Source: an uncultured Planctomycetaceae bacterium (GTDB lineage: Bacteria; Planctomycetota; Planctomycetia; Pirellulales; Pirellulaceae). From it: a stretch of DNA of 64,000 nt. A program made the position numbers and the translations under genes. Position 1 is the stretch's first letter. Every line of letters starts with the position of its first letter. The notes under the pieces were generated by a model. The model was not told the origin of the DNA. It ran no database searches and saw only the letters and a list, made by a program, of their open reading frames with translations. The stretch covers positions 1-64,000 of the forward strand of contig CAIPEB010000193.1 of assembly GCA_903863885.1 (NCBI GenBank), read 5' to 3'. Below are positions 40,818 to 59,197 of the stretch, in pieces.

Positions 40818-41705
40818 TCACTCCGAAGCAAGCTGCCGCGAATTGCTGCGAGGCGGTGACTGCAGGCCCCCGACGCGCTGAATCCACACGTGCAATTCGC
40901 CCAGGTACGAGCTCGGGTCCGGTTCGAATTCCAGCGTGTGGGCTGCCGTCGCGTACTCGCAGCACTGTTTGTCCGCGGCGGCGATTTCATCGAAGAAGGC
41001 GCGCGTGCGACCGTTGTTCACGATGCGTTCGCGTCCGGCGAGCATCAGCAGCGTCGGTGCGTGCATGGATCCCGCCGCCGCCCGCGCCGCCCTGTTGAGG
41101 TCGAGATCGGCGACCGCCCAGCGTATCGTGATCGTGCGGAGCGTGAATGGATCGTCTCGGATGAAGGCCTGCCAGCGAGGCGTATCCGTGAAGAGGCGGG
41201 GATCTCGCAAGGGAATCGAGATCCGCATGCGGCCGAATCCCGATCGCATGGCGGCGCGCAACAGGAATCGCTGCGGGAGATTGGCCTGCTGCAACGCGTA
41301 GAGCCCGGGACACAGCAATCCCATGCCGCCGATCAATTCGGGGCAGTGCCGCCCGAGTGCTGCAACCAGCTTGCCGCCCCAACTGATTCCCAGCACGATT
41401 GCGCGTCGGCCGTCGGGCCATTGCCCGAGATATGCCTCCATGTCGCGCAGCCATTGCTGGTGTCCGATGGCGTCGCCGCGCGCGTGCATGTTCAGCCCTG
41501 AGCCTCGACGGTCCACGGCGTGAACTTCACATCCCCGCGCTGCGAGAAAGCGGCAGGTGCTCAGATACCAGCCGCTGTGACTCACGATGCCGTGGATGAG
41601 AACGACGCGCGGTGTCCCGGTTCCGGCATTCCAGATCCGCGACGCCATGCGATAGCCGTCCGGTGCGGCGAAAGAGATGATCTCGTGCGCTTCGCAAGGT
41701 CTCAC
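40818..41705 (-). CDS. Alpha/beta hydrolase, monoacylglycerol lipase-like
   Basis: A 295-residue hydrolase with a GTG start preceded by GGAG. Motifs: VVLIHGIVSHSGWY (oxyanion region, about 34-47), VDRRGSGLN, the nucleophile elbow LGISWGGKLV, and AAHTLEFEP with the catalytic His. Lysophospholipase/monoacylglycerol-lipase-type enzymes cleave acyl esters. It ends the minus-strand run that starts with the polyketide synthase and could trim or release an acyl product, but it may equally belong with the catabolic genes downstream (81 nt to the giant exported protein). Confidence 0.82.
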   Translation of the reverse strand: MRPCEAHEIISFAAPDGYRMASRIWNAGTGTPRVVLIHGIVSHSGWYLSTCRFLAARGCEVHAVDRRGSGLNMHARGDAIGHQQWLRDMEAYLGQWPDGRRAIVLGISWGGKLVAALGRHCPELIGGMGLLCPGLYALQQANLPQRFLLRAAMRSGFGRMRISIPLRDPRLFTDTPRWQAFIRDDPFTLRTITIRWAVADLDLNRAARAAAGSMHAPTLLMLAGRERIVNNGRTRAFFDEIAAADKQCCEYATAAHTLEFEPDPSSYLGELHVWIQRVGGLQSPPRSNSRQLASE

Positions 41706-41764: not shown

Positions 41765-42946
41765 TCAGGCCAATGGGCGCTTCAACTCACGAATAGTCCA
41801 GCGCGCAAGCACTTCGGGGTTCACATGTACGCCCGATCCGGGGCTCTCAAGCGCCGGCGCACGGCCGCCGTATGCGAACGTGATGTCCTCGTTGGTCAGC
41901 AATTCCCGCAATACGTGCCGATCGTATGAGCCTTCGAGGTAACGGATGTTACTCACGCTGGTCGCCCAATGTCGTCCGGCAGCCGAGAGGATGCCCGTTT
42001 CTCCGGGGTGGCATCCGAGTTGATAACCCAGTCCGTGTGCCGAGGCCTCGGCGGCAAGACGCAGGCTGTTGAGAAAACCGCCGCACTTCGACAGGCGGAT
42101 GTTGAATAGATCGCAGGCACGCACTGCAGTCGCGCGTTGCGCGTCGGCCATGCTGGTCAAGGACTCGTCCAGCATGATCGGAACTGCGAGCCGTGTCCGG
42201 ACCTCGGCCAGGGAATCAAGCTCCGCGTGCGGCACCGGCTGTTCCAGGCAACTGATGCGGTAACGGAGCAGCGGCTCGACTGCAGCGGCCAACTTGTCCG
42301 CGTGCCAGGACTCATTGGCATCAATTCGAATATCGACGCGGCTGCCCAGGCAGAGCCGGATTCGCCGCAGGCGTCTCGCGTCGTCGGCCCCTGCGAGGCC
42401 GACCTTGACCTTGCACTGTTGGAAACCGTAGCAGCGCATCTTGAGCGCGCTGCGGCATTCCGCGAAAGCGCTCTCGGCCGTGATGGTTGTGGAATAACGC
42501 ACTTCGCGGCGTTCGTGACTGATGGAACGCGCCGGCGGAAAGTGACGGGTCACTGTGGAGATGGGCTCAGCGAACAAGCGTCCGTACGCATCAAGAATGG
42601 CCAACTCCACCGCGCAGCGAAGCGAGTTGCTGCGGCAGCCGCGCGGATCGTCGCAAGGGACGGATGGTTGAAATGCCCCGCAAAGTTCGATCACTTCACT
42701 CCAGCGTGTCGGCGACGCGCACAACTGGCGCTCAAGAGGTGTTTGACCGAACTGATCCAGCGCGCCTTCCGGGGTCTCGCCGGTCACATAATCCCGCGGC
42801 ACGCCTTCGCCCCAGCCTTCGATCCCGTTGGCCAAGCGGCAGCGAACGAGAAGGTTGGTGCTTTCGCACCGAGTCGCGGAGGCATGTCGGATGACGCGCC
42901 GCAGAGGAACTCGCACGATGTAACAGGTCAGTTCGGCGATCCGCAT
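41765..42946 (-). CDS. Enolase-superfamily enzyme (muconate-lactonizing/dipeptide epimerase/OSBS type)
   Basis: A 393-residue protein with the N-terminal capping domain (MRIAELTCYIVRVPLRRVIRHA) and a barrel carrying CKVKVG (catalytic Lys), IDANESW (Asp), LEQPVPH (Glu), MLDESLTS (Asp) and RLSKCGGF (second Lys). The metal site and both lysines of the MLE subgroup are therefore intact. Members catalyse proton abstraction next to a carboxylate: cycloisomerisation, dehydration, or amino-acid/dipeptide epimerisation. Epimerisation of an N-acyl or dipeptide substrate would fit a pathway with a GH3 amide synthetase, but this is inference. Its start codon overlaps the 3' end of the upstream SDR gene by 19 nt, so translation is coupled. 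Confidence 0.85.
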   Translation of the reverse strand: MRIAELTCYIVRVPLRRVIRHASATRCESTNLLVRCRLANGIEGWGEGVPRDYVTGETPEGALDQFGQTPLERQLCASPTRWSEVIELCGAFQPSVPCDDPRGCRSNSLRCAVELAILDAYGRLFAEPISTVTRHFPPARSISHERREVRYSTTITAESAFAECRSALKMRCYGFQQCKVKVGLAGADDARRLRRIRLCLGSRVDIRIDANESWHADKLAAAVEPLLRYRISCLEQPVPHAELDSLAEVRTRLAVPIMLDESLTSMADAQRATAVRACDLFNIRLSKCGGFLNSLRLAAEASAHGLGYQLGCHPGETGILSAAGRHWATSVSNIRYLEGSYDRHVLRELLTNEDITFAYGGRAPALESPGSGVHVNPEVLARWTIRELKRPLA

Positions 42947-43965
42947 GGCGATCCGATCAAACGCGGTGTCTGCATTTTGCCCGTCGCCCAGTCGAGCGCG
43001 TCGCGCATTCCGGGTTGGAAATCCACCGTTCCGCGATATCCCAGCTGCCGCTTGGCCTTGGCAATGGAAAAGTCGAGGTTCAACGCCATGAACTTGATTG
43101 TCGCGCGGGTCAGCAGCGGCGGTTGCTCGCTGCCTTTCAGCCTGGCATAACCTTCAATGAACGGTACTGCAACCCTTGCCAGCCAGAGCGGAACACGGCC
43201 AGGCCGCGGTTTGCCGAGATACTCAGCCACCGCCATCAGGTATTCTTCGCGCGTCACGAGACGGTCGTCTCGAATGTTGTAAACCTGACCGACAGCCTCG
43301 TCCCTGTCGATTGCGAGAAACACCGCGTCGACGAAGTTGCCGACGTATACGTTGTTCAACAGTGATTTTCCGTCGCCGATGAATTTCACCATGCCGGACT
43401 CGAATCGCTGCAGCAAACGCGGAATCACGTGCCGTTCGCCGGGGCCGTAGATGAAGCCCGGCCTGAGAATCACGGCCGGCAGTTTGCACTCATCAATGTG
43501 ATGCCGGACCACCACCTCGGCTTCCGCCTTGGTCCGGGTATATCCGTCGAGTCCCGTAAGACTCGGGGACACTGTCTCATCCGTTCCGTAGTGATTCCGG
43601 GCGGGATAGACGCCCAATGTACTGACCTGGATCCAGCGCTCGACCGCGGCTGCTCGCTCGGCGGCAGCCAGGAAATGCTCGAGCGCAACGACATTTATTG
43701 CCCTGTACTTTTCTGCGGGTCCCCAGTCGCCGATGTGCGCCGCCGAATGCACCACGATCTGTACGTCCTGCAGCAGTTTCGGAAAACAGGCGTGATCGGA
43801 AAGGTCGCCGTCGACGTACTCGATATCGAGTCCGGCGAGCAGCGTGCGGTCCGCGCCGGCCCGTACGAGAGCACGCACCTTGTAACCGCGCTCAAGTGCG
43901 CGTCGCGCGACAAAACTGCCGACCATTCCCGTCGCGCCGGTAACCAGCATTCGCCTGTTTGCCAT
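42928..43965 (-). CDS. NAD(P)-dependent epimerase/3beta-HSD-like SDR (OleD-like)
   Basis: A 345-residue extended SDR: TGATGMVG (10-17), VVHSAAHIGDWGPAEKYRAINV (about 71-92), the catalytic Tyr142-TRTK146, and LRPGFIYGPGERHVIPRLL. The HSAAxxGxWG and INV patterns recall the 3beta-hydroxysteroid dehydrogenase/OleD branch, which reduces or oxidises beta-keto or beta-hydroxy groups of acyl or sterol substrates. That fits tailoring of a polyketide or fatty acyl product, though sugar-nucleotide epimerases share the fold. The ATG at 43965 (MANRRMLVTG) is preferred over the in-frame start 18 nt upstream. Its stop overlaps the enolase-superfamily gene. Confidence 0.85.
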   Translation of the reverse strand: MANRRMLVTGATGMVGSFVARRALERGYKVRALVRAGADRTLLAGLDIEYVDGDLSDHACFPKLLQDVQIVVHSAAHIGDWGPAEKYRAINVVALEHFLAAAERAAAVERWIQVSTLGVYPARNHYGTDETVSPSLTGLDGYTRTKAEAEVVVRHHIDECKLPAVILRPGFIYGPGERHVIPRLLQRFESGMVKFIGDGKSLLNNVYVGNFVDAVFLAIDRDEAVGQVYNIRDDRLVTREEYLMAVAEYLGKPRPGRVPLWLARVAVPFIEGYARLKGSEQPPLLTRATIKFMALNLDFSIAKAKRQLGYRGTVDFQPGMRDALDWATGKMQTPRLIGSPCGSPN

Positions 43966-44322
43966 GAACCGCTCCGCAGACAACGAGGTAGCAATTGTGG
44001 TCTCAGTGTATCAGTTGTCCGCCGCCGTCGGGATGGGTTCTCATGTGCCGTACGGCCCGCATTGAATGAGGGCACGGACGTCCGGGAGCGGAGAGCGAAT
44101 CGATCCGCGTTTCATCCGTGAAAATCCGTGGCCTCTTTTCCTCCGAATGCTCCGTGGCTCGTACGAAAGAATCCGGAGTCCGGAGAAAGACAAACAACGA
44201 TCCCGCTGCCGCCGCTTCCGGCGATCGCATTTTCATCGGGCGTGGTGTATCGCCAACATCTCAACTCCGATGTTGTTGTTTCGCACTGCCGGGTAAATTT
44301 CTGGCACAACCCCGCCGGCCTC
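43966..44322. other. Gene-free interval holding repeat copy A
   Basis: No gene is supported in these 357 nt. It carries the first copy of the direct repeat (44097-44269), the likely promoter of the OleD-like operon, and the 3' trailer of the DUF2442 gene. Confidence 0.5.
44097..44269. repeat. Direct repeat copy A flanking DUF4160/DUF2442 cassette
   Basis: A 173-nt sequence starting GAATCGATCC and ending CATCTCAACTCCG. It is near-identical to 45084-45247 in the same orientation; the main difference is a 9-nt insertion (GCCGCTTCC) in this copy and scattered substitutions. It contains TCATCCGTGAAAATCCGTGG and TCATCGGGCGTGGTG blocks. Confidence 0.9.
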
Positions 44323-44619: not shown

Positions 44620-44880
44620 CTAATTGAGAGGCGCGATGCGATTCGGAGGTTGATTGCTTCGCATCAACTCCCAGTTGGCCAACAGTTCCTGTTGATGTGC
44701 AGTTGCCCATTCGATAACCATGCCCAACGCACGTCGGGACATCCGACCGCGCAATAGGCTGATCTTCTCGATATCCAGTTCCGCCTCCGCGTCATTGTAG
44801 ATCGCATGGAAATGCGGCGGATTGTGGTCGTCGAAGTACATTCGAATGGAAATACCGAAAAACCTGCTCACCTCTGGCAT
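44620..44880 (-). CDS. DUF4160-family small protein
   Basis: An 86-residue protein with MPEVSRFFGISIRMYFDDHN, then PPHFHAIYNDAEAELDI and WATAHQQELLANWELMR, all characteristic of DUF4160. The frame stays open for 100 codons upstream into the repeat, but the family starts at this ATG. It forms a two-gene unit with the DUF2442 gene. Molecular role unknown; a toxin-antitoxin-like role is a hypothesis based on gene pairing. Confidence 0.88.
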   Translation of the reverse strand: MPEVSRFFGISIRMYFDDHNPPHFHAIYNDAEAELDIEKISLLRGRMSRRALGMVIEWATAHQQELLANWELMRSNQPPNRIAPLN

Positions 44881-45267
44881 GGTTTTTTCCACAGACACCC
44901 AGTGAATGTGACGAGGACTGACACGACGTGTCTGCCAACGCCCGATCCGGCGCTTGCTCAAGAATTGATTATATTCGTACTCGCCGATTCGTGTGCGACG
45001 AAGATGGACCGTTGCGACTTTCAGGCCAACGTCGAGTATGAAGCGGCAGGACCAGAAGTGCTGCTGGGCAAGGTATGCAGGATGAATCGATCCGTGCTTC
45101 ATCCGTGAAAATCCGTGGCCTCTTTTCCTCCGAATGCTCCGTGGTTCGTACGAAAGAATCTGGCGTTCGGAGAAAGACAAACACCAATCCCGCTGCCGGC
45201 GATCGCATTTTCATCGGGCGTGGTGTGTCGCCAACATCTCAACTCCGTGATTGTCTCTCCGCCTTGA
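44881..45267. other. Gene-free interval holding repeat copy B
   Basis: This 387-nt stretch holds the second direct repeat copy (45084-45247) and about 200 nt of unassigned sequence upstream of the DUF4160 gene, presumably its promoter. The open frames here are extensions or repeat-derived and were not accepted. Confidence 0.5.
45084..45247. repeat. Direct repeat copy B flanking DUF4160/DUF2442 cassette
   Basis: A 164-nt copy of 44097-44269 in direct orientation, lacking the 9-nt insertion. With copy A it encloses 814 nt (44270-45083) containing both small genes. It lies 20 nt beyond the stop of the GH3 gene, inside what would otherwise be one long minus-strand operon. Confidence 0.9.
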
Positions 45268-46962
45268 TTACAGCGAATCGCTGGTTGTCGTGCCGTCCGT
45301 TGAATCCAGCGTCGAAAGTCGCTCGGCGAACTGCAGGTCATTGACGAGGCACGGGTGTTTGTACTCTTCCAGGTTGCCGCGCCGGGAGATGCGACCCGCG
45401 CGGAAGCGATCCCAGGCGCCCTCGGGGATTTCGATCAGGGACAAGGGTTCAAGCCTGCGAGACCGGACCTTGTCGGCATACTCGCAGTTCAATTGCCGGA
45501 GTTGCGAATCGACGAATCGCAGGAGATCCGCTGCCCGCCCTTTCTCGATTCCCGCTTCCAGCAGAAGCACATAGCCCGGGCGGTCACCCTCGACTCGCGG
45601 AGCGATCGTGAAGGTCTCGATCCGCATGCCGAGTTCCGAAAAGCCGGCCTGCACGGCCGAGACAACCTGGAATTCGCTGAGTTTCTCGCCGGTGAGACTC
45701 GAGAAGTGCGCTCCCTTGCTCAGGAATCGCAGGACAGGGACCTGTCCCTCAAACGCCTCGCACCGCACGAGATCGTGAATGTTGTAGCGGTAGAGACCGG
45801 CGGACGTCGTGAGCAGGATGAAGTAATTCCGCCCTTCCTGAAGTTCGTGCGCTTCGAGCACGGTGGGGTTCGGGCGGTCGATCTCCTCCTCGGGGATGAA
45901 CTCGTAGTAATGGTGCACGTAGTCGAGGATTCCGCTGCTCGTTCCGTCTTCGAGCGGGATTGTCATGCGACCCTCGCTCGCGGACAGACCGTGATCCCTC
46001 AGCGCCGTATCGCCAAAGTATTCACCCAGCCGCGGCAGATAGACGCCGACGGATCCTCCCATCCAGACGGCCAACAGCGACAGATCCGGCCATGCGTAAC
46101 GCGGGTACAGCATCCCGTGCTGGTCGATAATCCGTTCAAGTTCGTTTGCCCTTCGCGGATTGCGCCGCCGAATCCGCGGCTCGAGTGAGGCACGGATCGC
46201 TGCGGGCAGTTCAGCGCCGGTCAGGGTTCCGTCGTGGATATCGCGGATCAACGACTCTCGTTGACGATCTGCTCGCCGTGCGAACTCGATCAGCGTGCTC
46301 GGATTGGCGGTGATGATCATGCCGACGTTCGGCTCGGCGAGGGTCAGCCGCAGCGCCGCGTAGTGCTTTGCTGCCGGATCGTCGATGCGCACGACCTCGC
46401 GCGGCAGGACAAATACGCGGCGCGTTACCGCGGGAGCCGCCTCTGCGGCCAGCCCGCTGATATTGCCGCATGGGATTCCGCTCTCGGTCACGAGTTGGCG
46501 CCAGTTGCTGGTCAGCTGCAGCGTCTTCTTGTGGATCTGATCGACATGGCCGTGGTAGTTCGCCGCGCCCCAGACGTGCCAGCTGCGCCGATACTCGGCG
46601 AAGAACTGACTTGTTACCGGAATGAACTTGGGGCGATTCGTCGTGCCCGATGTCATGGCGAACATCAGTACGCGAGTGCCCGGGCCGAACATCGCGCCGA
46701 GGTCGCCGCGTTTGACGCTTTCGATGTACTCGCGGTAATACTCGTAGTCGGTGATGGGGACCCGGCGCCGGAAATCGTCGAGGGTTCGTATTTCGGAAAA
46801 GGCGTGGTCTCTGCCGAAGCGGCTGTCGGCATTGCGGCCCAACTTCTCAAACAGCCGTTCTCGCTGGACCTCACGCGATCGATGGGTTTCGCGCAGGAAC
46901 GCGCCTACCTTCCGATAGTAGATCGGTATCGCGGCCCGGTAGATCAGGGATTCAATGCTCAC
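45268..46962 (-). CDS. GH3-family acyl-adenylating amide synthetase
   Basis: A 564-residue GH3 (auxin-responsive promoter) family protein. The ATP motif AMTSGTTNRPKFIPV (about 102-116), YPRYAWPDLSLLAVWMGG, SASEGRMTIP and FILLTTSAGLYRYNIHDLVR follow the GH3 order. Plant GH3 enzymes adenylate a carboxylic acid hormone and couple it to an amino acid; bacterial members are less well characterised. The start is a GTG at 46962 that overlaps the stop of the ketopantoate-reductase-like gene (GTGA). An annotation starting further upstream in this frame would be wrong. Coupling to a PKS with a thioesterase suggests it activates the released acid and forms an amide or ester. Confidence 0.88.
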   Translation of the reverse strand: MSIESLIYRAAIPIYYRKVGAFLRETHRSREVQRERLFEKLGRNADSRFGRDHAFSEIRTLDDFRRRVPITDYEYYREYIESVKRGDLGAMFGPGTRVLMFAMTSGTTNRPKFIPVTSQFFAEYRRSWHVWGAANYHGHVDQIHKKTLQLTSNWRQLVTESGIPCGNISGLAAEAAPAVTRRVFVLPREVVRIDDPAAKHYAALRLTLAEPNVGMIITANPSTLIEFARRADRQRESLIRDIHDGTLTGAELPAAIRASLEPRIRRRNPRRANELERIIDQHGMLYPRYAWPDLSLLAVWMGGSVGVYLPRLGEYFGDTALRDHGLSASEGRMTIPLEDGTSSGILDYVHHYYEFIPEEEIDRPNPTVLEAHELQEGRNYFILLTTSAGLYRYNIHDLVRCEAFEGQVPVLRFLSKGAHFSSLTGEKLSEFQVVSAVQAGFSELGMRIETFTIAPRVEGDRPGYVLLLEAGIEKGRAADLLRFVDSQLRQLNCEYADKVRSRRLEPLSLIEIPEGAWDRFRAGRISRRGNLEEYKHPCLVNDLQFAERLSTLDSTDGTTTSDSL

Positions 46963-48032
46963 GGTTCGGCTTTCTTCCGATGTTCTGCGGCCTGTCCTAG
47001 CCGCCTGAATCGTCCAATCACCTGCTCTCGCGAAAAGAACGCACCGGCGCCCTGCCGTTCCAGTTCGTGAACCATATCCACCACGGCCGAATTGAAAGGT
47101 GCCTGCCCCGCTAGAGATTCCGCGAGCCGGACGACCTGTCCATTCACGTGATCGATTTCCGTCGGTTTTCCGCGCACGAGATCCTGCTGCAGCGAAAAGA
47201 CGATTGCCCTGCGATTGTAGTTTCTCCGGGCGACTGTGGCGATCAGGCTGCCAATCAGCGGAGCACCGAGCAGATGCATCAGGTTTCGCAGGCCGTGGAT
47301 CCCGGGCCGCCCCGGGATTTTCGCCAAGGAAATCCGGGCCCGCCGCAATGTCGCGATGCATTCCCTGACCAGAGGAAGACCCACGTGCGTCCGCCAAGCC
47401 GGGTCGCATAAGCCTTCCGTGATGAAGTTCGACTGTGACAGGCACGAAGCATAACCGACGGCGTTGAACGTCAATTTGCTGTAAAGCACACCGAGTACGT
47501 TGGGATGCTCGCGCACCGGCAAGCCCGATCTTGTCAACAGCCGCGCCGCCGATCGCGATGCGTCGATGTTGACTCGATCGCGCGACGGTCCCACCACAGT
47601 GACGCCGTTGAGTTGCAGGCTGACAACCCCCGGTTCGACCACCGAGATGTTCGTAGCCGTCATGCCCATCACAAGGCGGTCGGGCGCAACGAATCGCAAG
47701 AGCGTGCCGTCGTTGATGCCATTCTGGATCGAGACCACGATCGCCCTGCCCCAATGCATCGAGGCCTGCTCGAGCGCAGCTTGCGTATCCTGTGATTTCA
47801 TCGTGACGAGCACGATATCCGACCCCGCAATTTCCGCCGTGTCTTCCGAGTATGCGACAGGCACATCGCACCGGCCCCACGGACCCTGGAGCTGCACGCA
47901 GCCCCGCTCGTGCATCGCTCGTCCATGAGCACCGCGGCCGATGAAGAGCATCTCGGTTTCAGGGGCGCGGTGCTTGATCAGTCCGCCGAGCATTGAACCG
48001 ATCGCACCGGCGCCGAGCACGGATACTTTCAT
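46959..48032 (-). CDS. Ketopantoate reductase-like (ApbA/PanE family) dehydrogenase
   Basis: A 357-residue protein: MKVSVLGAGAIGSMLGGL Rossmann start, VTMKSQDTQAAL (with the NADPH/substrate Lys region), SIQNGINDGTL, and a C-terminal helical domain with YSKLTFNAVGYASCL, FSLQQDLVRGKPTEIDHVNG. PanE reduces 2-ketopantoate in pantothenate synthesis, but many paralogues reduce other 2-oxo acids. Being joined to the PKS gene by an ATGA overlap and to the GH3 gene by GTGA, it most likely tailors the polyketide product or supplies a 2-hydroxy acid building block. It is somewhat longer than PanE. Confidence 0.88.
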   Translation of the reverse strand: MKVSVLGAGAIGSMLGGLIKHRAPETEMLFIGRGAHGRAMHERGCVQLQGPWGRCDVPVAYSEDTAEIAGSDIVLVTMKSQDTQAALEQASMHWGRAIVVSIQNGINDGTLLRFVAPDRLVMGMTATNISVVEPGVVSLQLNGVTVVGPSRDRVNIDASRSAARLLTRSGLPVREHPNVLGVLYSKLTFNAVGYASCLSQSNFITEGLCDPAWRTHVGLPLVRECIATLRRARISLAKIPGRPGIHGLRNLMHLLGAPLIGSLIATVARRNYNRRAIVFSLQQDLVRGKPTEIDHVNGQVVRLAESLAGQAPFNSAVVDMVHELERQGAGAFFSREQVIGRFRRLGQAAEHRKKAEP

Positions 48033-51000
48033 GGCTGGCCGTCACCCTCGGGGAATGATGAGAAGGGCGACCTGCCGAGGCCGGCAGTGCATGCTTCCAC
48101 AACGCGGGCCAATGCTCCGGCATGTTCCGGCGACATCATGCTGAAATGGTCGCCCGGCGCGCTGTGGATTTGCAGCCGATCGCCGATCGTCTGAGCCCAA
48201 CCGAAATCGTGGCCGAGTGGCCGGCCGGTGATTTGTTCCAGCACATCTCCCGTTTCGGGACGCACCAGGTGGATCTTCTGGGAGAACGGGGCGATTCGAT
48301 AACCGCGGATCATGCGCGCGTGAGCATTGCCGGCCTCAACGATCCGGCGAATGTGATCGGGAGTTGTCTCGCGCGGCAGCACTCGCTGCGAAGTGGCGAC
48401 TTCCCAGACAAACTGCCACAGCGTTGCTTCGTCCATCGACGAGAGGTGTTCGTAAGAGATCTGCCGGACATCGATCGTGGCGCCGGCAAACCAGTTCGTG
48501 AAATTGCCCAGTTCGAGCAGGAACTTCAGATTGTCGTCAAGATGTACGCTGTCGTAGATCGAAGGCAGCGGCGTGTCGAAGAGGATCACAAGGCCGAGTT
48601 CGTCGCCTCGCTCTTGAAGCGTCCTGGCCAGCTCATACGCAAGTATCCCGCCGGCGGACCAGCCTCCGATGAAATAAGGACCTGACGGTCGAATGGACTT
48701 CACCGCGTCGTGGTAGACTTCGATCATCTCGCCCAAATCGCTGTGGGGCGGAAGCACACCCTCGTTGCCGCGGCCCCGCATCGCGATCAGCGGATTCCGC
48801 GTCAGGGCACGGGCCAAGTGGCGGTAACAGTTGATATCACCGCCGAGCGGATGAATGCAGAAGAGCGGCGCTGCGCCTTCAAGCGGACTCATGCGGACGA
48901 TGGGCGACCACGTGCGGAGATCCGATTCGGGCAGCGCAATTGAGTCTGCGGCCTCGGCTCCTCCGGTACTGATCGCTTTGGACGCGTGAGAGGCCAGCTT
49001 CGTGATGCTCGGGCCTTCCATGAAGGCCGTCATCGGAAGGCTGAAATCGAGACGCCTCTCGAGGTTGTTCTTCAATTCCATCGCCAGCAGCGAGTCCATG
49101 CCGATTTCGTTGAGCGGCTGATCGAGTTCCAGCGAGTCCTTGTCAATGCCCATGATCCTCGCCAGTTCGGTGGCGAAGTAATCACGCAGACGTTCCACGC
49201 GCCCGCCGGCGTCCAGCGGCTGAAGTGAATCGAGGAAGACGCGGTCGATTCCCTCGGCTGCCACTGCCTGATCTTCAGCGGAGTGCAGCACCGCGATGTC
49301 ATGGAGCAGCGTCGGCACGCGGTTGCCGAGCATGCGCAACAGGTCGGGCCAGTTCACGTCCATGGCCGCGCAATTCGAGTCGGGCCCCGACATCAGTTGT
49401 TCGAGAAGCCGCAAGGCCTGGCCCGGTCCAAGCAGCCGCATGCCGCGGCTCTGCATTTGACCGGAGTGTCCCGCGTCGACGGCCATTCCCGAACCCGACC
49501 ATGGTCCCCAGTTGACGCTCAACGCCGGCAGGCCCCGGAAGCGGCGGTATTCGGCCAGGGCATCGAGGAATGCGTTGCCGGCCGCATAATTCGCCTGCCC
49601 CGGCGAACCGATTACGGCAGCCACCGAAGAAAACAGGACGAAGTGTTCCAGCGGCGAGGTGGCCGTGGCCGCATGAAGATTCCATGCGCCGATGACCTTG
49701 GGGGACATGGCCCGATCCAGGCTCGCAAGATCCATGTCGAACAGCAGGCCATCGTCCAGTACGCCCGCCGCATGAAAGACTCCGCGCAACGGCGGCAGTT
49801 CGGAACGGATCGTATCCATGGCGGTCTTCAGCGAATCCCAATCTGCCACGTCCGCTGCGATCGCGGTGATATTCACGCCGGATGCCCGCCAATTCTCGAT
49901 CGCTTCCGCCGCTTCCCCGGCGGGTTTGTTCCGCGACACGAGCACGATGTGCCCCGCGCGGTTGTCGATCAGCCATTGAGCGAGATGCCTTCCCAAGGCT
50001 CCGAGTCCGCCGGTTACGAGATAAGTTGCATCGCTGCGAATCAAGCGAGAGCCGGCGGACTCCGTTTTGCCGGAAACGCCGTCCCGTCTGTCAAGCGACA
50101 CAACGACCTTGCCGATGTTCCGGCGCTGCGCCATGAAGCGGAACGCTTCGACGGTCCGGTCGATCGAGAACTCCGTCTTCGGCAGCGGATGGTAGACGCC
50201 CTCTGCGAAATGCCGCATGACTTCGGCAAACAGCGAGCGAATCGCATCGGGACGCTGCCGCAGCATTCGATCGAGATCGATCGCGAAGTAGGACAGGTTG
50301 TCCTGGAACGGAAGCAGTCCGATCATCCGGTTCTGGTAGATGTCGGTCTTGCCGATCTCCAGGAATCGGCCGTAGGCACGCAGCACCGACAGGCTTTTGG
50401 AGATCGCGTCCCCGGGCAGTGAATTCAGAACCACATCGACGCCCTGGCCTTCGGTCGCCGCCCGGATCTGCCCGGCAAACTCCAGTGTGCGCGAACTGAA
50501 TACCTGCTGAACGCCGAGCGAACGCAGGTAGTCGCGTTTCGACTCGCTGCCTGCCGTTGCGAACACTTCGGCGCCGACATGCTGCGCTATCTGGATCGCA
50601 GCCAGCCCCACGCCTCCGGCTCCGGCGTGGATCAGAATTCGCTCGCCTTGCTGCAGCCGGGCCAGCGTGATCAATGCGTAATAGGCAGTGAGAAATGTGA
50701 TCGGGACGGTGGCTGCTTCGGCCGGATCGTTGAGCGTGTCGGGGCGGCGAACGAGAGCATATTCAGCGGTCAGCGCATGCGAGGCAAAGCTGAACGGCGC
50801 GACGCCGAGCACTTCGTCGCCCGGTCGAAGCCGCTCGATATCCGGACCGACCGCAGTGACTCGCCCCGCGCACTCGATTCCCAGCGGGACGATCGGGTCG
50901 GTCAGGCCCGGGTAAAGCCCCATGGCTTTGAGCACGTCGCTGAAGTTCAACCCGGCTGCCGCGACTTCCACCTCCACCTGGCCCGCGCCTGGAGTCGGGC

Positions 51001-54000
51001 GCTCGAATGGCTCGAACCGCAGCGACTCAAACCGGCCCGGCTGGCCGAGACGCAGGTGGTACGACGTCGAACGGGGTACGGCAAACACGCCGGTGGTTTC
51101 AGCTGGTCCCTGACTCTCCGGCGCCGGTTCGAGTCTCGCAACGAGCCGCTCGCCGTGGCGATACGCAATCTGTTCCGCTGCCGAGCCGACGATGATCTCC
51201 CGCGTCAACTGCGAAGCTGCTGTTGCGATATCCGCGCGAGGATCAAGGTCGATGAGCCGGCAATGGAATTCCGGATGTTCCATTCCGAGAACACGTCCCA
51301 GGCCCCACAGCGGAGCCTGAGCGCACGCGACGTCCGAATCCTGCGAAGATGCGACCTGCGACCCTCGCGTGACAAGAAAGACGGCGGGCGGGACTGAAAA
51401 CTGCACCCGTGCCAGTCGGCGCACCAGGAGCAGAGCGGCGCCGGTGCCTCGGCGCCGTGCCTCGCGCAGCACCGGCGAGCCGTCGTGCCCCGGATCGTCG
51501 ATATCCAGGCTCCAAAGGTGAATGACTGACGCCGGGAGACTCTCCGCCGAACTGAATCCTTCGCTGAACAACCTCTCCCAGTGCGCATCGTCGAGTGGAT
51601 TCAGTCCGCATTCACCGCCGCTTCCGTCGGTTGCCGCGCGCAGCCTGAACTCGCTTGCGCACCTGACCAGCCAGATTCGCCGTCCGGACTGACGCAGTGA
51701 TTCGGCCAGGCCGCCGCCGACGCCCGAATCGTCCGCGAGGATCAGGGCGGTTTCGCGCGGCGCGGCTAATTCGCTCCGAATCTCGCCGGAAATGCTCAGG
51801 GGCTGCGTCTTCCATTCGGTTCGATAGAGCCAATCAGCAACGCTGCGTTCGTGGCCGTCGCCACCGGAGCGGCCAACGCGTTGGACACGCACTCCGGTCA
51901 TTTCGACGATCATTTGTCCTGTCGTGTCGAATACACAGATGTCGCCTTCGACCGTTTCGGGGCTGGCTTGATCGGCCTTGGAAGTCCGCACGCCGAGGAT
52001 GAGCGAGCCATTCTGCGGCCTGCTCTTCACTCGGACCCGCTGCACCTGTGTGGGCAGGTATGTGTACCGGCTGAACGAGCCGTCCGGTTCGAGCGGCACG
52101 AGGCCCGCAGTCGCCTGGAACAGGGCGTCGCCGATGGCCGGGTGCAGCTCGTATTTGTCCAGGTCGGCGACGATGCCCGGCGGCACGGCCACTGCCGTGA
52201 GTGCATGCTGATCGTCCCGCCTCAGATCCTGAAGCACTTGAAAGCTGGGACCGTAGACCAGGCCGCGCTGCCTCATCAATTCGTGGTAGAAGGCATCTTG
52301 CGAGGTGATCGAATGGACTTGCCGGCGAATCTCGTCAAGCTCCGGCGGCGCCGACGGTGCGGCTTCACCCGTTCGGTCCAGACGGACTTTGCAGCAGGCG
52401 TGGAGCGTCCATCTCATTTCCGCAGTGTCCGACTCGGCGGCCGTGCTGTGAACCTCCAGCAGGAACTCGTCCGCACCCGCAGGCGATGCTGTGAGTTGCA
52501 CCGCGCGATCGTGACCCTCGGCCAGGAACATCGCATGCTGAATCGACAGGTTCTCGATTACATGTTCGCCCGGGCCAAGGAGGTGTTTTGCCGCGGCGAG
52601 CGCCATTTCGACGTAACCTGCGGCCGGGAAAACGGGCGCGCCCTGCACCTGATGCTCTGCCAGGTATTTCGGCGAGTGGCACGAGAGACGAGACTCGAAA
52701 ATCTGCGTGGGCAAGGGCGAAAAAATGCGGTGGCCGAGCAGCGGATGCAGCGCCGGACCGTGTCCTCCCGTGGTGAACCGCCGCTGCGCCTGATTCGGTT
52801 CGAACCAGTATCGGTCGTGATCGAAAGGATAGGTGGGCAACTCGGCCGTTCGCCGACCGTGGGTTCGTTCAAAGGCCGCCCAATCGATCTTGCCGCCCGT
52901 CAGATAGAGTTCGGCGACGCTCTGAAGCAGCACGCTCCAGTCGTCCTGGCCCTTGCGCAGCGAAGGCAGCCAGAGGATGTTTGCATCGTTCCAGCAGCGT
53001 TTGCCCATCCCGATCAGGCTTGCGGTCGGCCCGACTTCGACCAATACACGCACGTCCTGGTCAGCCAGCGCACGGATACCCTGCTCGAAGAGCACAGGGT
53101 TACGGGCGTGGTCCCGCCAGTAGCGGGCGTCGGGCGCGTCGCCGGTAAGCAAACGTCCGGTGAGGTTGGACGCAATCGGAATAGCGGGCGCGCGGAACTC
53201 GCCCTGCGCCGCAATTCTCTCGAATTCGTCGAGCATCGGCTCCATCAACGGCGAGTGGAATGCATGCGACACAGTGAGCAACTGGGCCGCAATTCCCTCG
53301 GCTGCGAATTGGGCCGCGATCACCTCGACGGCTTTGGAGTCGCCGGAAATCACCGTGTTTTCGGGGCCGTTGACCGCGGCGATCGAGATTGCGCTGGCGG
53401 AAAGTCGAGGCCTTACTCTTTCCGCCGGAGCAAAGACCACCGCCATTGATCCGTTTCGCGGCAGTTGCTGCATCAGCCTCGCCCTCGCTGCGATCATGCG
53501 CAGGGCCTGCGGCAGATCGAAGACGTCCGCAATGCACGCTGCGACATATTCGCCCACGCTGTGGCCCAGCAGGATACAAGGCTCGACGCCCCACGATCGC
53601 CACAGTTGGGCCAGCGAATACTCCAGCGAAAAGAGCGCCGGCTGCGTGTAGGCGGTTTCATCCAGCAGACCTCGCGTGTCGCCGCGCTCGAACAGCACAT
53701 CGAGCAACGACTGTTCCAGTTCGCCACGAAGCCCTTCGTCGCACCGGTTCATGGCTTCGCGAAAGACCGGTTCGGATTCCCACAAGGCACGCCCCATTCC
53801 GACGTACTGTGAACCTTGACCCGTGAACAGGAATGCGACTTTCGGGGGCGCGGACATGCGGGCCCGCGCGGTGTTCACGCCGGGTATCTTGCGGCCGTCC
53901 CGCAATGCGGCCAGTTGTTCGGACAGGGATGCGGTGTCCGAAGCCACGCAAGCGGCACGATAGGAAAAATGAGAACGGCCCGCGTTGGCCGATGCGCAGA

Positions 54001-55522
54001 TATCCTCGATGGCCAACTCAGGGCGATTGCTCAGACACTCGTCGTATCGGCCGGCGAGTCTCGCCAGAGCGGTCTCCGTCTTGGCGGACAACGTCAGCAG
54101 GTGCAGTGGACGATTTGCGGCCGGGGGCGGACCGCCGGTCTGGGGCGAAGCCTCCTCGACAATCACGTGGGCATTCGTGCCGCCGAATCCAAAGGAACTG
54201 ACACCGGCCACTCGCGTGCCGTTGACCGCATCCCAGGGAACTGAATCCTGAGCGATCCGCAGCCTCGTGCCGGCCAACGAAATGTGTTCGTTCAGCTGGC
54301 TGAAATAGAGTTGCGGCGGAATCACACGGTGCTGGAGCATCAGCACCACCTTGATGATGCCCGCTATGCCCGAAACCGTTTCCGTGTGTCCGATGTTCGC
54401 CTTGACCGATGCGATCGAGCACGGCGGCTGGTCGGCCGACAGCCGGCGAAAGACCTCGGCCAGAGCCTGAGCTTCGATCGGGTCGCCGAGCGGCGTGCCG
54501 GTGCCGTGCGCCTCGATGTAACCGACCGATTCGCTCGCGATTCCCGCTTGAGCCAGCGCCGCGCGAATAACTTCCTGCTGTGCCCGGCTGCTTGGAGCCG
54601 TGATGCCGGACGTGCGTCCGTCCTGGTTGGCGGCGGTCGCTCGAATCACGGCCAGCACACGGTCGCCGTCCCGAACCGCATCGGTGAGTCGCTTCAGCAC
54701 AAGGATGCCACAGCCCTCGCCGCGCACGTAACCGTTGGCGCTTGCGTCGAACGGCCGGCAACGCCCATCCGGCGAGAGCATGCGAGCCTTGGAAAACGCA
54801 ATCGTTGTCTCGGGTGTGAGAATCAAGTTCACCGCGCCTGCCAGTGCGGCGTCGCATTCCCGGTTTCGCAGGCTGCTGACCGCCAGATGCACGCCGATCA
54901 GGCCCGACGAGCACGCAGTATCCACGGCCAGACTCGGCCCCCGAACATCAAGAACGTAGGAGAGACGGTTTGCCGCGATGCTCAACGCGTTGCCGGTCCC
55001 CACGTGTGCGTCGATGTGCCGATAGTAATCCTCGAACTGTGACGGGATCTTCGAGTAATCCGTTCCGCCGATCCCGATGAACACTCCGGTTCGACTTCCG
55101 CACAATCGCTCCGGCGAGATGCATGACGTCTCGAGCGACTCCCAGGCCACCTCCAGCAACAAACGCTGTTGCGGATCCATGCGGGACGCCTCGCGCGGCG
55201 AGATCCCGAAGAACTGCGGATCGAACCGGTCCACGTCGGCGATCATCCCCGCCCAGCGCACCGACATCTTGCCCGGTTGGTCGTCGCCCGTGTCGTAGAA
55301 TTCGTCCACGTCCCAACGCGACGGCGGAATCTCGCCGGTCGCGTCGATGCCCTCGGAGATGATCCGCCAGAACGCATCGAGACTTGAAGCCCCGGGAAAA
55401 CGGCAAGCCATTCCGACGATGGCGATCGGCTCGGCGGTGCGAGGGCTCCCCTTGAGTCGCTGCTCCAGCAAATTCCGTTGTGCAACCGAGAGGTTCGCCA
55501 CGCGTTCTGCAAGATCGGCCAT
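48029..55522 (-). CDS. Single-module fully reducing type I polyketide synthase (KS-AT-DH-ER-KR-ACP-TE)
   Basis: A 2497-residue multienzyme. KS (about 31-455): DTACSSGL with Cys204, HGTGTPLGDP with His339, KANIGHTE with His379. AT (about 560-860): GHSVGE with Ser655 and SHAFHSPL, the HAFH pattern associated with malonyl-CoA choice. DH (about 905-1190): His957 in EHQVQGAPVFP and Asp1132 in HPAIGDALFQ. ER (about 1490-1820): HAGAGGVG. KR (about 1835-2010): TGGLGALG and Tyr1979 in NYAAGN. ACP: Ser2144 in GMDSLLAMEL. TE (about 2215-2480): Ser2289 in GGWSAGG. Every catalytic residue is intact, so each cycle could give a saturated two-carbon unit, as in iterative fatty-acid-like synthases. There is no loading module or second module, and the TE suggests release as a free acid or lactone. 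A GAGGAAAA ribosome-binding site precedes the ATG. Confidence 0.96.
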   Translation of the reverse strand: MADLAERVANLSVAQRNLLEQRLKGSPRTAEPIAIVGMACRFPGASSLDAFWRIISEGIDATGEIPPSRWDVDEFYDTGDDQPGKMSVRWAGMIADVDRFDPQFFGISPREASRMDPQQRLLLEVAWESLETSCISPERLCGSRTGVFIGIGGTDYSKIPSQFEDYYRHIDAHVGTGNALSIAANRLSYVLDVRGPSLAVDTACSSGLIGVHLAVSSLRNRECDAALAGAVNLILTPETTIAFSKARMLSPDGRCRPFDASANGYVRGEGCGILVLKRLTDAVRDGDRVLAVIRATAANQDGRTSGITAPSSRAQQEVIRAALAQAGIASESVGYIEAHGTGTPLGDPIEAQALAEVFRRLSADQPPCSIASVKANIGHTETVSGIAGIIKVVLMLQHRVIPPQLYFSQLNEHISLAGTRLRIAQDSVPWDAVNGTRVAGVSSFGFGGTNAHVIVEEASPQTGGPPPAANRPLHLLTLSAKTETALARLAGRYDECLSNRPELAIEDICASANAGRSHFSYRAACVASDTASLSEQLAALRDGRKIPGVNTARARMSAPPKVAFLFTGQGSQYVGMGRALWESEPVFREAMNRCDEGLRGELEQSLLDVLFERGDTRGLLDETAYTQPALFSLEYSLAQLWRSWGVEPCILLGHSVGEYVAACIADVFDLPQALRMIAARARLMQQLPRNGSMAVVFAPAERVRPRLSASAISIAAVNGPENTVISGDSKAVEVIAAQFAAEGIAAQLLTVSHAFHSPLMEPMLDEFERIAAQGEFRAPAIPIASNLTGRLLTGDAPDARYWRDHARNPVLFEQGIRALADQDVRVLVEVGPTASLIGMGKRCWNDANILWLPSLRKGQDDWSVLLQSVAELYLTGGKIDWAAFERTHGRRTAELPTYPFDHDRYWFEPNQAQRRFTTGGHGPALHPLLGHRIFSPLPTQIFESRLSCHSPKYLAEHQVQGAPVFPAAGYVEMALAAAKHLLGPGEHVIENLSIQHAMFLAEGHDRAVQLTASPAGADEFLLEVHSTAAESDTAEMRWTLHACCKVRLDRTGEAAPSAPPELDEIRRQVHSITSQDAFYHELMRQRGLVYGPSFQVLQDLRRDDQHALTAVAVPPGIVADLDKYELHPAIGDALFQATAGLVPLEPDGSFSRYTYLPTQVQRVRVKSRPQNGSLILGVRTSKADQASPETVEGDICVFDTTGQMIVEMTGVRVQRVGRSGGDGHERSVADWLYRTEWKTQPLSISGEIRSELAAPRETALILADDSGVGGGLAESLRQSGRRIWLVRCASEFRLRAATDGSGGECGLNPLDDAHWERLFSEGFSSAESLPASVIHLWSLDIDDPGHDGSPVLREARRRGTGAALLLVRRLARVQFSVPPAVFLVTRGSQVASSQDSDVACAQAPLWGLGRVLGMEHPEFHCRLIDLDPRADIATAASQLTREIIVGSAAEQIAYRHGERLVARLEPAPESQGPAETTGVFAVPRSTSYHLRLGQPGRFESLRFEPFERPTPGAGQVEVEVAAAGLNFSDVLKAMGLYPGLTDPIVPLGIECAGRVTAVGPDIERLRPGDEVLGVAPFSFASHALTAEYALVRRPDTLNDPAEAATVPITFLTAYYALITLARLQQGERILIHAGAGGVGLAAIQIAQHVGAEVFATAGSESKRDYLRSLGVQQVFSSRTLEFAGQIRAATEGQGVDVVLNSLPGDAISKSLSVLRAYGRFLEIGKTDIYQNRMIGLLPFQDNLSYFAIDLDRMLRQRPDAIRSLFAEVMRHFAEGVYHPLPKTEFSIDRTVEAFRFMAQRRNIGKVVVSLDRRDGVSGKTESAGSRLIRSDATYLVTGGLGALGRHLAQWLIDNRAGHIVLVSRNKPAGEAAEAIENWRASGVNITAIAADVADWDSLKTAMDTIRSELPPLRGVFHAAGVLDDGLLFDMDLASLDRAMSPKVIGAWNLHAATATSPLEHFVLFSSVAAVIGSPGQANYAAGNAFLDALAEYRRFRGLPALSVNWGPWSGSGMAVDAGHSGQMQSRGMRLLGPGQALRLLEQLMSGPDSNCAAMDVNWPDLLRMLGNRVPTLLHDIAVLHSAEDQAVAAEGIDRVFLDSLQPLDAGGRVERLRDYFATELARIMGIDKDSLELDQPLNEIGMDSLLAMELKNNLERRLDFSLPMTAFMEGPSITKLASHASKAISTGGAEAADSIALPESDLRTWSPIVRMSPLEGAAPLFCIHPLGGDINCYRHLARALTRNPLIAMRGRGNEGVLPPHSDLGEMIEVYHDAVKSIRPSGPYFIGGWSAGGILAYELARTLQERGDELGLVILFDTPLPSIYDSVHLDDNLKFLLELGNFTNWFAGATIDVRQISYEHLSSMDEATLWQFVWEVATSQRVLPRETTPDHIRRIVEAGNAHARMIRGYRIAPFSQKIHLVRPETGDVLEQITGRPLGHDFGWAQTIGDRLQIHSAPGDHFSMMSPEHAGALARVVEACTAGLGRSPFSSFPEGDGQP

Positions 55523-56210
55523 TCAGTTTTCCTCAACCTCGCCCGATTCTTCAAAATTCCTCGGATTGTCGCGATCTGCCGGAACCGGCATTTAGACGCG
55601 TTCGCCCAACATCGGTTTTCGTGCCGTACAGGATTTCGCAATCCGGGACATGAAGCCGGCGCGCGAGAGCAGGCGATCCGAACCGATCCGCCTGCCTGCC
55701 GAATCAATGCATGCTGCAATTGATGCGATCAGTCCATTCGACTCGCGACAGGTGCCGTGATTCCCTCTTGTGTTCCGTTCCCCAACCGGGCTGCGCGGAT
55801 GGTTCCGACTGAACAGATGACGCGGCCGTGCAGCCGAACAAACCGCTCGCGGAGCGGCCAGCCACGGTCGGCCAGTATAGGGGGGAAGGCTCCAGAACTC
55901 AACAATTGTGGAGTTACTCGCCGTACGATTGTCAAGATGTAGGGTGCCGGAATTCTCAATGGATGGGAGAAATGCGTAACTCGCCCGAAGGGCCCTGTCT
56001 GGGACGATTTCCCAGGCTTGCACGGTGTTTCAAGCCCGGCAAGCGCGAGACCGAGGCCGCGTGCCGGGTTTGGCAGCCTTTCCGGCAAGAAAACTCCTTG
56101 TTTCTTCGAAGGACCTTGAGAGTATGGAAAAATCGGAGTGCCAGCCTGACCACTCTCGTTGCACGGCTCCGAACCGCTCCGCTTCTCGACAACTGCAGGT
56201 GCCTGACGCC
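55523..56210. other. Divergent control region between PKS and RTX-esterase
   Basis: A 688-nt gap containing the divergent promoters of the PKS operon and the secreted esterase. A 20-bp near-palindrome at 55896-55915 is annotated separately. ATGs at 56025 and 56124, in frame with the esterase, are possible but less likely starts. No gene is supported. Confidence 0.5.
55896..55915. promoter_or_regulatory. Near-perfect 20-bp palindrome, candidate operator
   Basis: AACTCAACAATTGTGGAGTT matches its reverse complement at 18 of 20 positions, centred on CAATTG. It lies 374 nt upstream of the PKS start in the divergent control region. The AT-rich core in a GC-rich genome is typical of a dimeric regulator site; no regulator gene is adjacent. 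Confidence 0.45.
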
Positions 56211-57937: not shown

Positions 57938-59197
57938 TCAATCGCAGGTGGAGGCATCGAACTGCATGGTGCGGATTGATTCCACCGCGCTCTGGTGCAG
58001 CGAGTAATTGTCAACCGTGGTCGAAACGAGCCACTGCGCTGCGCGAGGCCGCGCCAGCAGCAGCAACGCGACGCCGGCGGCCGGGAAGAAACTCCGCCAG
58101 TCCTTCCGGACGTTCGTCAGTTCGTCTTCGCTGTTCTCGTACAACCCAGAACCTCGCCAGGATCTCAGCAGTTCGGCGACGAGTTGCCTTCGGCTGCACC
58201 CGTTCAGCGCCATGGCCATCAGGATGAGGAAGCCCTGATGAGTCTTCACGCCTTCGCGTGCATCCGCTGCCGGCAATACGGGGCGGCCCAGGGAAACCTG
58301 CACCAGCAATTCGCACAGGTTCACGCCGCTGAGCAAGGCGCTGCCCGTTTCTCCGATTCTCGGGTTGCATTCGATCAGTTGCAGGCTGCCCGTCTGGGGA
58401 TCGCGGAAGTACTCGATGCACATCGCGCCATGCCAGGCCAGATGTGCGCCGATGTGCCGCATCTGTTCGACCGCCGCATCGTCCAGCACGCTGATCTTGG
58501 CCATGGATGAGCCGCCGACGCCCGTGGCGCGGGATTCAACGCACTGTGCGCCGACAAGCACACCCTCCTGGAAGATCCCGGTTACGCCCCGTTTGACGCC
58601 GGTCGCGAGTGTCTGCACGAGTATCTCGCGATCATCGCCGACCCAGCCTGCACGATCAAAATCATCCACTGCCTTGCAGAGTTCGCTTGCGCTGTTGACC
58701 AGCCGGACGCCCTCGCCAGCCGTACTGTAAGGAACCTTCACGTAAAAGGGAAACTCGTTGCGGACCAGCAAGTCGCTTCGTCCGTGCACGATTTCGGTGC
58801 GCGGTTGCGGCAGGTTCAATTCATCCAGCAGTCGCGAGAACCTGGCTTTGCTCATCAGGCGATCCATCGACTCGAACGACGGCAGCGCCAGAGCCGTGTG
58901 CTGCTTCAGCTCATCGCGGAATCGGGACAGCAGGAACACCTGTTCATGCGTCGGAAGCAGCACGTCGTACGGTTCCGATCGCAATCGATCGACGAGGAAC
59001 GAGAGGTAAGCGGCGGGTTCGCGCGAGTAGCAGGGACAATTGTAGCGGCGGCGCACGAACCTCGAAAATCGGCCCTGGCAGAACGGCGACGGGTCGAGCA
59101 GGTCGAGCGTGTGCCGGGGGCCGAGCGAGAAAATCGCCTGGCGCGCCGACGTGCTCGAGCCTTCGGTCAACAGGATCTTCAGCGGTGCTGCCGTCAC
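57938..59197 (-). CDS. ATP-grasp ligase
   Basis: A 419-residue ATP-grasp enzyme of the carbamoyl-phosphate-synthase-like or carboxylate-amine ligase group. Features: an N-terminal pre-ATP fold (MTAAPLKILLTEGSSTSARQ), PFYVKVPYSTAGEGVRLV (ATP-binding Lys and Gly-rich loop, about 150-170), and IECNPRIGETG (Mg-binding Glu and Asn, about 271-281). It would phosphorylate a carboxylate and couple it to an amine or thiol; the substrates are unknown. It has a GTG start with a GAGGGGTG ribosome-binding site inside the end of the upstream dehydrogenase gene (3-nt gap), so it is the last gene of that operon. Repeat island B follows its 3' end. Confidence 0.85.
   Translation of the reverse strand: MTAAPLKILLTEGSSTSARQAIFSLGPRHTLDLLDPSPFCQGRFSRFVRRRYNCPCYSREPAAYLSFLVDRLRSEPYDVLLPTHEQVFLLSRFRDELKQHTALALPSFESMDRLMSKARFSRLLDELNLPQPRTEIVHGRSDLLVRNEFPFYVKVPYSTAGEGVRLVNSASELCKAVDDFDRAGWVGDDREILVQTLATGVKRGVTGIFQEGVLVGAQCVESRATGVGGSSMAKISVLDDAAVEQMRHIGAHLAWHGAMCIEYFRDPQTGSLQLIECNPRIGETGSALLSGVNLCELLVQVSLGRPVLPAADAREGVKTHQGFLILMAMALNGCSRRQLVAELLRSWRGSGLYENSEDELTNVRKDWRSFFPAAGVALLLLARPRAAQWLVSTTVDNYSLHQSAVESIRTMQFDASTCD

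Follow-up and report, generated by a model that had tools for sequence, protein, structure and literature searches.

Planctomycetes carry many biosynthetic clusters without an assigned product. In mycobacteria, polyketide synthases (PKSs) are paired with FadD adenylating enzymes, as in Pks13/FadD32 and Pks2/FadD23, while GH3 enzymes are associated with acyl-amide formation, the family members being able to use other acids and amines. As for the planctomycetes themselves, the nearest tested chemistry is that of Singulisphaera acidiphila: the GH3 enzyme OlsH joins a free fatty acid to ornithine at the expense of ATP, producing N-acyl-ornithine, and the alpha/beta hydrolase OlsI adds a second acyl group to this product by O-acylation (PMC12493201). 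The author of the preliminary description of the locus considered here knew of no described pathway with its combination of genes; no known product was found for it, but a fatty-acid-using planctomycete GH3, namely OlsH, was already in the literature. A literature search for the gene combination returned only the OlsH paper as relevant, and coverage of subscription journals was thin, which makes this absence weak evidence; as far as the search reached, the conserved seven-gene set reported below is undescribed.

The window, that is the whole stretch of 64,000 nucleotides that was analyzed, carries, on its minus strand, a PKS gene followed head to tail by a PanE-like gene and a GH3 gene (Table 1). 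The PKS/PanE junction reads CC-ATGA-AA at 48032-48029 and the PanE/GH3 junction reads CC-GTGA-GC at 46962-46959, and together with the ORF positions these reads bear out the ORFs, coordinates and stop/start overlaps of the preliminary description. There, the trio was taken as a candidate biosynthetic operon; it does belong to a conserved biosynthetic unit, but this unit has seven genes, so that the trio as the complete unit was rejected. In several Pirellulales, the PKS is unlinked from the other genes. The SDR, enolase-superfamily and hydrolase genes lie downstream of GH3 on the same strand, with the enolase start located 19 bp within the SDR gene, and the ATP-grasp gene lies upstream of the PKS; these four genes belong to the unit, and its chemistry is constrained more by them than by PanE. 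What the analysis shows is the presence of all seven genes, the integrity of their catalytic motifs and their conservation as a set.

Table 1. Members of the seven-gene set in the window, and the related fusion gene found at other planctomycete loci
Feature	Position	Strand	Size and basis of assignment
PKS, single-module type I, KS-AT-DH-ER-KR-ACP-TE	48029..55522	minus	2497 aa; Pfam, motifs and KS tree
PanE-like 2-oxo-acid reductase	46959..48032	minus	357 aa; Pfam ApbA and ApbA_C; conserved residues; model fold
GH3 acyl-amide synthetase	45268..46962	minus	564 aa, GTG start; Pfam GH3, GH3_M, GH3_C; motifs; tree
ATP-grasp ligase	57938..59197	minus	419 aa; fold of L-amino-acid ligases and PylC; conserved near PanE
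Extended SDR, OleD/3-beta-HSD-like	42928..43983	minus	351 aa; Pfam and NCBIfam; YxxxK in six orthologues
Enolase superfamily, MLE/dipeptide epimerase/N-acyl-amino-acid racemase class	41765..42946	minus	393 aa; Pfam MR_MLE_C; PDB matches
Alpha/beta hydrolase, monoacylglycerol-lipase-like	40818..41705	minus	295 aa; Pfam Hydrolase_4; PDB monoacylglycerol lipases
Alpha/beta hydrolase-PanE-like fusion	L057 8709-10529; L058 3472-5313; L059 2822-4684; L064 6782-8569		several planctomycete families

Two further features of the window lie among these genes. GH3 and the SDR are separated by a DUF4160 gene (44620-45180), which is spanned by a direct repeat of about 180 bp (copies at 44097-44276 and 45084-45254; identity 92%, spacing about 987 bp); because GH3 and the SDR adjoin in relatives, this interval has the appearance of a later insertion or duplication. 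The opposite strand encodes, in the interval from the PKS to the ATP-grasp gene, a putative esterase with RTX calcium-binding repeats (56025-57815, plus strand), for which no relation to the seven-gene set was found.

Regarding conservation in relatives, on which the preliminary description had made its case depend, PKS, PanE and GH3 occur together in eight genomes (G000, G274, G294, G296, G297, G400, G422 and G426) that span the window's own family and the Pirellulales, so that a lack of conservation cannot be held against the trio. In another genus of the window's family (G274), a single 25.8 kb contig bears all seven genes plus an MMPL gene in a rearranged order: PKS, GH3, hydrolase, enolase, MMPL, PanE, ATP-grasp and SDR. 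A scan of named genomes with the PanE alignment gave six planctomycete loci, namely those of Pirellulales IP29b_bin.126 (L067), MAG_30 (L068), ALOHA_ZT_43 (L069), Aeoliella straminimaris ICT_H6.2 (L070), DLM2.Bin10 (L071, same contig as G274) and CSSed162cmA_102R1 (L072), the last with the PKS followed by PanE at a contig end; a search of the Aeoliella family added G400 (L194; single contig of 6,608,792 bp), G422 and G426. Some 40 bp separate PanE from GH3 in L070 and L067, and the PKS and PanE genes of L072 do not overlap; a fixed ratio of the proteins therefore does not follow from the overlaps, and this weak argument was rejected. Four-base ATGA and GTGA overlaps are common among bacteria, and what relatives keep here is the linkage of the genes, not their stop/start overlaps.

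The gene order was desaturase-PanE-GH3-SDR-enolase-hydrolase in L067 and L070, with the ATP-grasp gene divergent; PanE-GH3-SDR-enolase is kept in L194 as well, where a hydrolase was looked for beside the set and not found. Thus, Pirellulales including the cultured A. straminimaris preserve the order from PanE to the hydrolase with the synthase unlinked, and in G400 the PKS and PanE are about 4.6 Mb apart on the one contig. The PKS adjoins GH3 in G274, ALOHA (PKS-GH3-SDR-enolase-hydrolase), G422 and G424. Overall, the PKS travels with the set but is often unlinked. The ATP-grasp gene stays near PanE in six loci or genomes (G274, L067, L068, L069, L070 and L194), and the alpha/beta hydrolase is in the same operon in the window, L067, L070, L092 and L047. 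Accessory genes vary: a GT2 and an FkbM methyltransferase gene precede the PKS in G422, in A. straminimaris and, joined into a single 565-aa protein, in G424; homologues of the two are present in IP29b, and of GT2 also in ALOHA. MMPL adjoins the set in G274 and L068. In the window's own genome, a search for the desaturase found no homologue, and MMPL homologues are distant only and on other contigs. No GH3 was found beside the PKS in G404, G405 and G437; a replacement ligase was considered there and rejected, the neighbors being Gfo/Idh oxidoreductases, a sulfatase, FeoB and a protein that no family matched with confidence.

The PKS is complete, fully reducing and equipped with its own TE, as first described: Pfam detects all of the domains, and the active-site motifs are intact, with DTACSS/EAHGTGT/NIGH in the KS, GHSVGE with HAFH in the AT (malonyl type), HxxxGxxxxP in the DH, GGVG in the ER, YAAGN in the KR, GMDSL in the ACP and GWSAGG in the TE. 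The orthologues from Aeoliella, IP29b_bin.126, ALOHA_ZT_43 and G274 have this motif set too, except that the TE pattern used had no match in that of ALOHA. In the KS tree, the sequences of the set form a clade (86/79) within a well-supported group (100/99) that also contains G375, a genome in which no GH3 of the set's type was found. Five of the six named genomes have one close PKS orthologue each, with KS domains 61-67% identical, and none was seen in MAG_30; G400, like A. straminimaris, has a single close homologue. The PKSs of G121, G205, G333, G339, G345 and G387, all from the window's family, group in another KS clade, and a search of these genomes found no close GH3. A second type I PKS locus exists in the window's own genome (L116, G000:C292:72000-91000), where a 2216-aa PKS is followed by at least one further KS.

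Pfam also bears out the two other assignments of the preliminary description, PanE-like (ApbA/ApbA_C) and GH3 (N-terminal, middle and C-terminal domains). In the PanE-like protein, N104, K186, N190 and E292 are invariant in six orthologues and correspond to active-site residues of Escherichia coli ketopantoate reductase (PanE); the nearest folds to its AlphaFold model are ketopantoate reductases and D-mandelate dehydrogenase, a D-2-hydroxyacid dehydrogenase. Fold and active-site residues are therefore those of the PanE superfamily, but the scores are below all PanE model cut-offs (TIGR00745, 139.5 vs 141.35; NF006083, 144.5 vs 371), and the context is a lipid gene set. The value just under the general subfamily cut-off, and the unlinked PKS and PanE of some genomes including the single-contig G400, would suit a chance neighborhood, with a stand-alone PKS beside unrelated metabolic genes and PanE serving coenzyme A synthesis; this is highly improbable, because the same families recur linked in differing arrangements across genera and orders, with significant co-occurrence. 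In addition, PanE of this type passed an E value of 1e-15 in only 15 of 294 planctomycete genomes, a rarity and distribution that disfavor a housekeeping enzyme.

Co-occurrence was significant: the enolase is found in 31 and GH3 in 77 of the 294 planctomycete genomes, with GH3 in all 31 that have the enolase (P = 4e-21), one family has 10 genomes with both, 1 with GH3 only, 0 with the enolase only and 5 with neither (P = 0.0014), and in the Aeoliella family all 6 PanE genomes are among the 13 of 43 that have the PKS at E below 1e-190 (P = 2.8e-4), all three P values being inflated by shared ancestry and the within-family test least so. Seven of those 13 PKS genomes have no close PanE, hence PanE is not obligatory for the PKS. 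GH3 and the enolase also occur in genomes without the PKS of the set, and their coupling across the phylum is a functional link that we have not previously seen reported.

The GH3 protein has the domains of the acyl-amide synthetases together with the nucleotide-binding motifs TSGT, SASEG and GLYRYNIHD, and the solved relatives found were JAR1 and other plant GH3 amide synthetase structures. It scores 117.3 bits with the OlsH model, against a cut-off of 620, and in the tree it is apart from the OlsH-like sequences, as sister to the GH3s of another family of the same class; both results rule it out as OlsH. They also bear on the idea that the locus makes a variant ornithine lipid, or an acyloxyacyl lipid with a single amino acid, with GH3 in the role of OlsH, the hydrolase in that of OlsI, and the PKS as no more than the source of a 3-hydroxy acyl chain. 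OlsH and OlsI are a planctomycete precedent for this, and GH3 is next to an alpha/beta hydrolase in many planctomycetes; such a product is nevertheless quite unlikely given the GH3 score and clade, a PKS that as built should reduce fully and not halt at the 3-hydroxy stage, and an enolase and an ATP-grasp protein that have no counterpart in the described pathway.

As for the enolase-superfamily protein, its best PDB match was 2p88, which is presumably an N-succinyl-amino-acid racemase (the record title gives the MR/MLE family only), followed by dipeptide epimerases. Residues K179, K181, D209, E235, D260 and K287 are invariant in nine homologues, and they provide the KxK motif, the three metal-binding acids and the sixth-strand lysine of the racemase/epimerase class. 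N-acyl/N-succinyl-amino-acid racemases and dipeptide epimerases, which share these residues, are thus the closest solved relatives; they match at only about 120 bits, and here the genomic partner is GH3. Function in the enolase superfamily is hard to predict from sequence. The recurrence of an enolase, a hydrolase and an adenylating enzyme also brings to mind menaquinone biosynthesis, in which MenC, MenH and MenE belong to the same three broad classes, and MenC models do match the enolase weakly (about 70 bits); a ring formed by elimination or cyclo-isomerization, instead of an amide, is however very hard to credit, since MenC is a more distant relative of the enolase than are the 2p88 family, dipeptide epimerases and muconate lactonizing enzymes, a MenD-like partner was not seen, and a saturated chain lends itself poorly to ring closure.

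The SDR retains YxxxK in six orthologues, and its best NCBIfam model is OleD, the 2-alkyl-3-oxoalkanoate reductase of the OleABCD olefin pathway; the score is 147.7 bits, below the cut-off of 580, and no OleA or OleC partner was seen within the seven-gene set. In the hydrolase, S108 and H256 are invariant in six orthologues. The AlphaFold model of the ATP-grasp protein (pLDDT 81.7) has its best fold matches in RizA (4wd3), 2pn1, PylC (4ffl) and 3vot, that is L-amino-acid ligases, a CPS-like protein and PylC; the L-amino-acid ligases of the RizA and BL00235 types and PylC are the closest folds, with a TM-score of about 0.5 and 14-18% identity only.

GH3 and the enolase are found in other planctomycete contexts as well. 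L061 (G055:C99, 3063-16759) is a type II-like locus with all genes on one strand: a class I/II aminotransferase, two FabA-like dehydratases, a KR, an ACP, two KSs and GH3, then a methyltransferase, DUF362, DUF1571, the enolase, an alpha/beta hydrolase and a flavodoxin-like protein; it is a second acyl-supply system on the same GH3-enolase-hydrolase core. In L055 (8087-14496), GH3 and the enolase lie between two alpha/beta hydrolases, with a patatin and a ParA-like gene and without a PKS, and L052, L053 and L056 have ORFs related to this arrangement. A hydrolase-PanE-like fusion was confirmed by Pfam in L057 (606 aa), with similar ORFs in L058, L059 and L064; the enolase is beside it in L058 and L059, which ties the hydrolase, PanE-like and enolase activities together.

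That the seven genes make a polyketide-derived N-acyl-amino-acid or acyl-dipeptide lipid is, on this evidence, an evenly balanced proposition, for which we infer every reaction, the step order and the product. In a single round or iteratively, the single-module PKS would add malonyl units to an acyl starter, and its TE would free a largely saturated carboxylic acid; a fully reducing PKS that is dedicated to the set and has its own TE points to a supplier of the acid. GH3 would adenylate this acid with ATP and attach it to an amino acid through the amino group, after which the enolase may use the lysines K179-x-K181 and K287 for a proton transfer that inverts the alpha-carbon of this N-acyl amino acid. 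The ATP-grasp protein may then make a further amide bond, perhaps to another amine or to a second amino acid. The PanE-like protein and the SDR would reduce a 2-oxo and a 3-oxo group to hydroxyls, whether these groups belong to the chain or to a building block, and, by analogy with OlsI in the ornithine-lipid pathway, the alpha/beta hydrolase could esterify a hydroxyl or trim it; some genera might then add a desaturase, the GT2/FkbM pair or the MMPL exporter. Given two amide-forming enzymes and one of the N-acyl/dipeptide racemase class, the product that accounts for them most economically is an N-acyl amino acid or acyl-dipeptide, and the desaturase and MMPL neighbors fit a lipid. The amino-acid chemistry is better supported than the 2-hydroxy modification of the product first suggested. 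The distance of this GH3 from OlsH, the seven PKS genomes of the Aeoliella family that lack a close PanE, the PKSs without an adjacent GH3 in G404, G405 and G437 and the lack of a hydrolase beside the set in G400 count against the pathway, as do the other acids and amines open to GH3 enzymes and the difficulty of predicting enolase function.

A wider and more tentative proposal is that the products form a new bacterial lipid class, polyketide-derived N-acyl amino acids or dipeptides in which an enolase-superfamily racemase inverts the amino-acid center once acylation is complete; GH3 and the racemase would be a widespread planctomycete core, and PKS, PanE, ATP-grasp, desaturase, GT2/FkbM and MMPL would be lineage-specific additions. 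The GH3-enolase coupling itself predicts epimerized N-acyl amino-acid lipids. A species description of 2026 lists one type I PKS cluster each in A. straminimaris and A. mucimassa; for the isolates that it describes, it states that all clusters but the type III PKS one lack an assigned compound (PMC13315336). With the partner enzymes named and a product class predicted, the question becomes testable in cultured strains.

In comparison with the mycobacterial FadD-Pks-acyltransferase-MmpL systems of Pks2 and Pks13, the set has a similar highly reducing single-module PKS with an adenylating partner, an acyltransfer-capable alpha/beta protein and, in some relatives, an MMPL exporter. On this model, GH3 would activate the starter acid for the PKS, the SDR would reduce the 3-oxo product and the hydrolase would move it to a head group, giving a hydroxylated lipid. 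The PKS scores well with both models, though under their cut-offs (Pks2, 1310 vs 2400 bits; Pks13, 756 vs 2100 bits), the SDR is nearest to OleD-type 3-oxo-acid reductases, and MMPL adjoins the set in two relatives; even so, this is unlikely, as the ATP-grasp ligase and the racemase-class enolase would have no role, the solved GH3 relatives found are plant amide synthetases, and GH3 and the enolase also occur where the PKS does not. Indeed, the mycobacterial, ornithine-lipid and menaquinone models each leave conserved genes without a role. Here, the adenylating partner is GH3 in place of a FadD-type acyl-AMP ligase, the AT is of the malonyl type, and the amino-acid-type ligase and the racemase-class enzyme are present. 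OlsH/OlsI is the nearest in tested chemistry, sharing at the level of enzyme class a planctomycete GH3 and an alpha/beta hydrolase of the same operon; no OlsG-like methyltransferase was noted within the seven-gene set, whose GH3 is instead of another clade and is accompanied by a PKS, a PanE-like reductase, an SDR, an enolase and an ATP-grasp protein.
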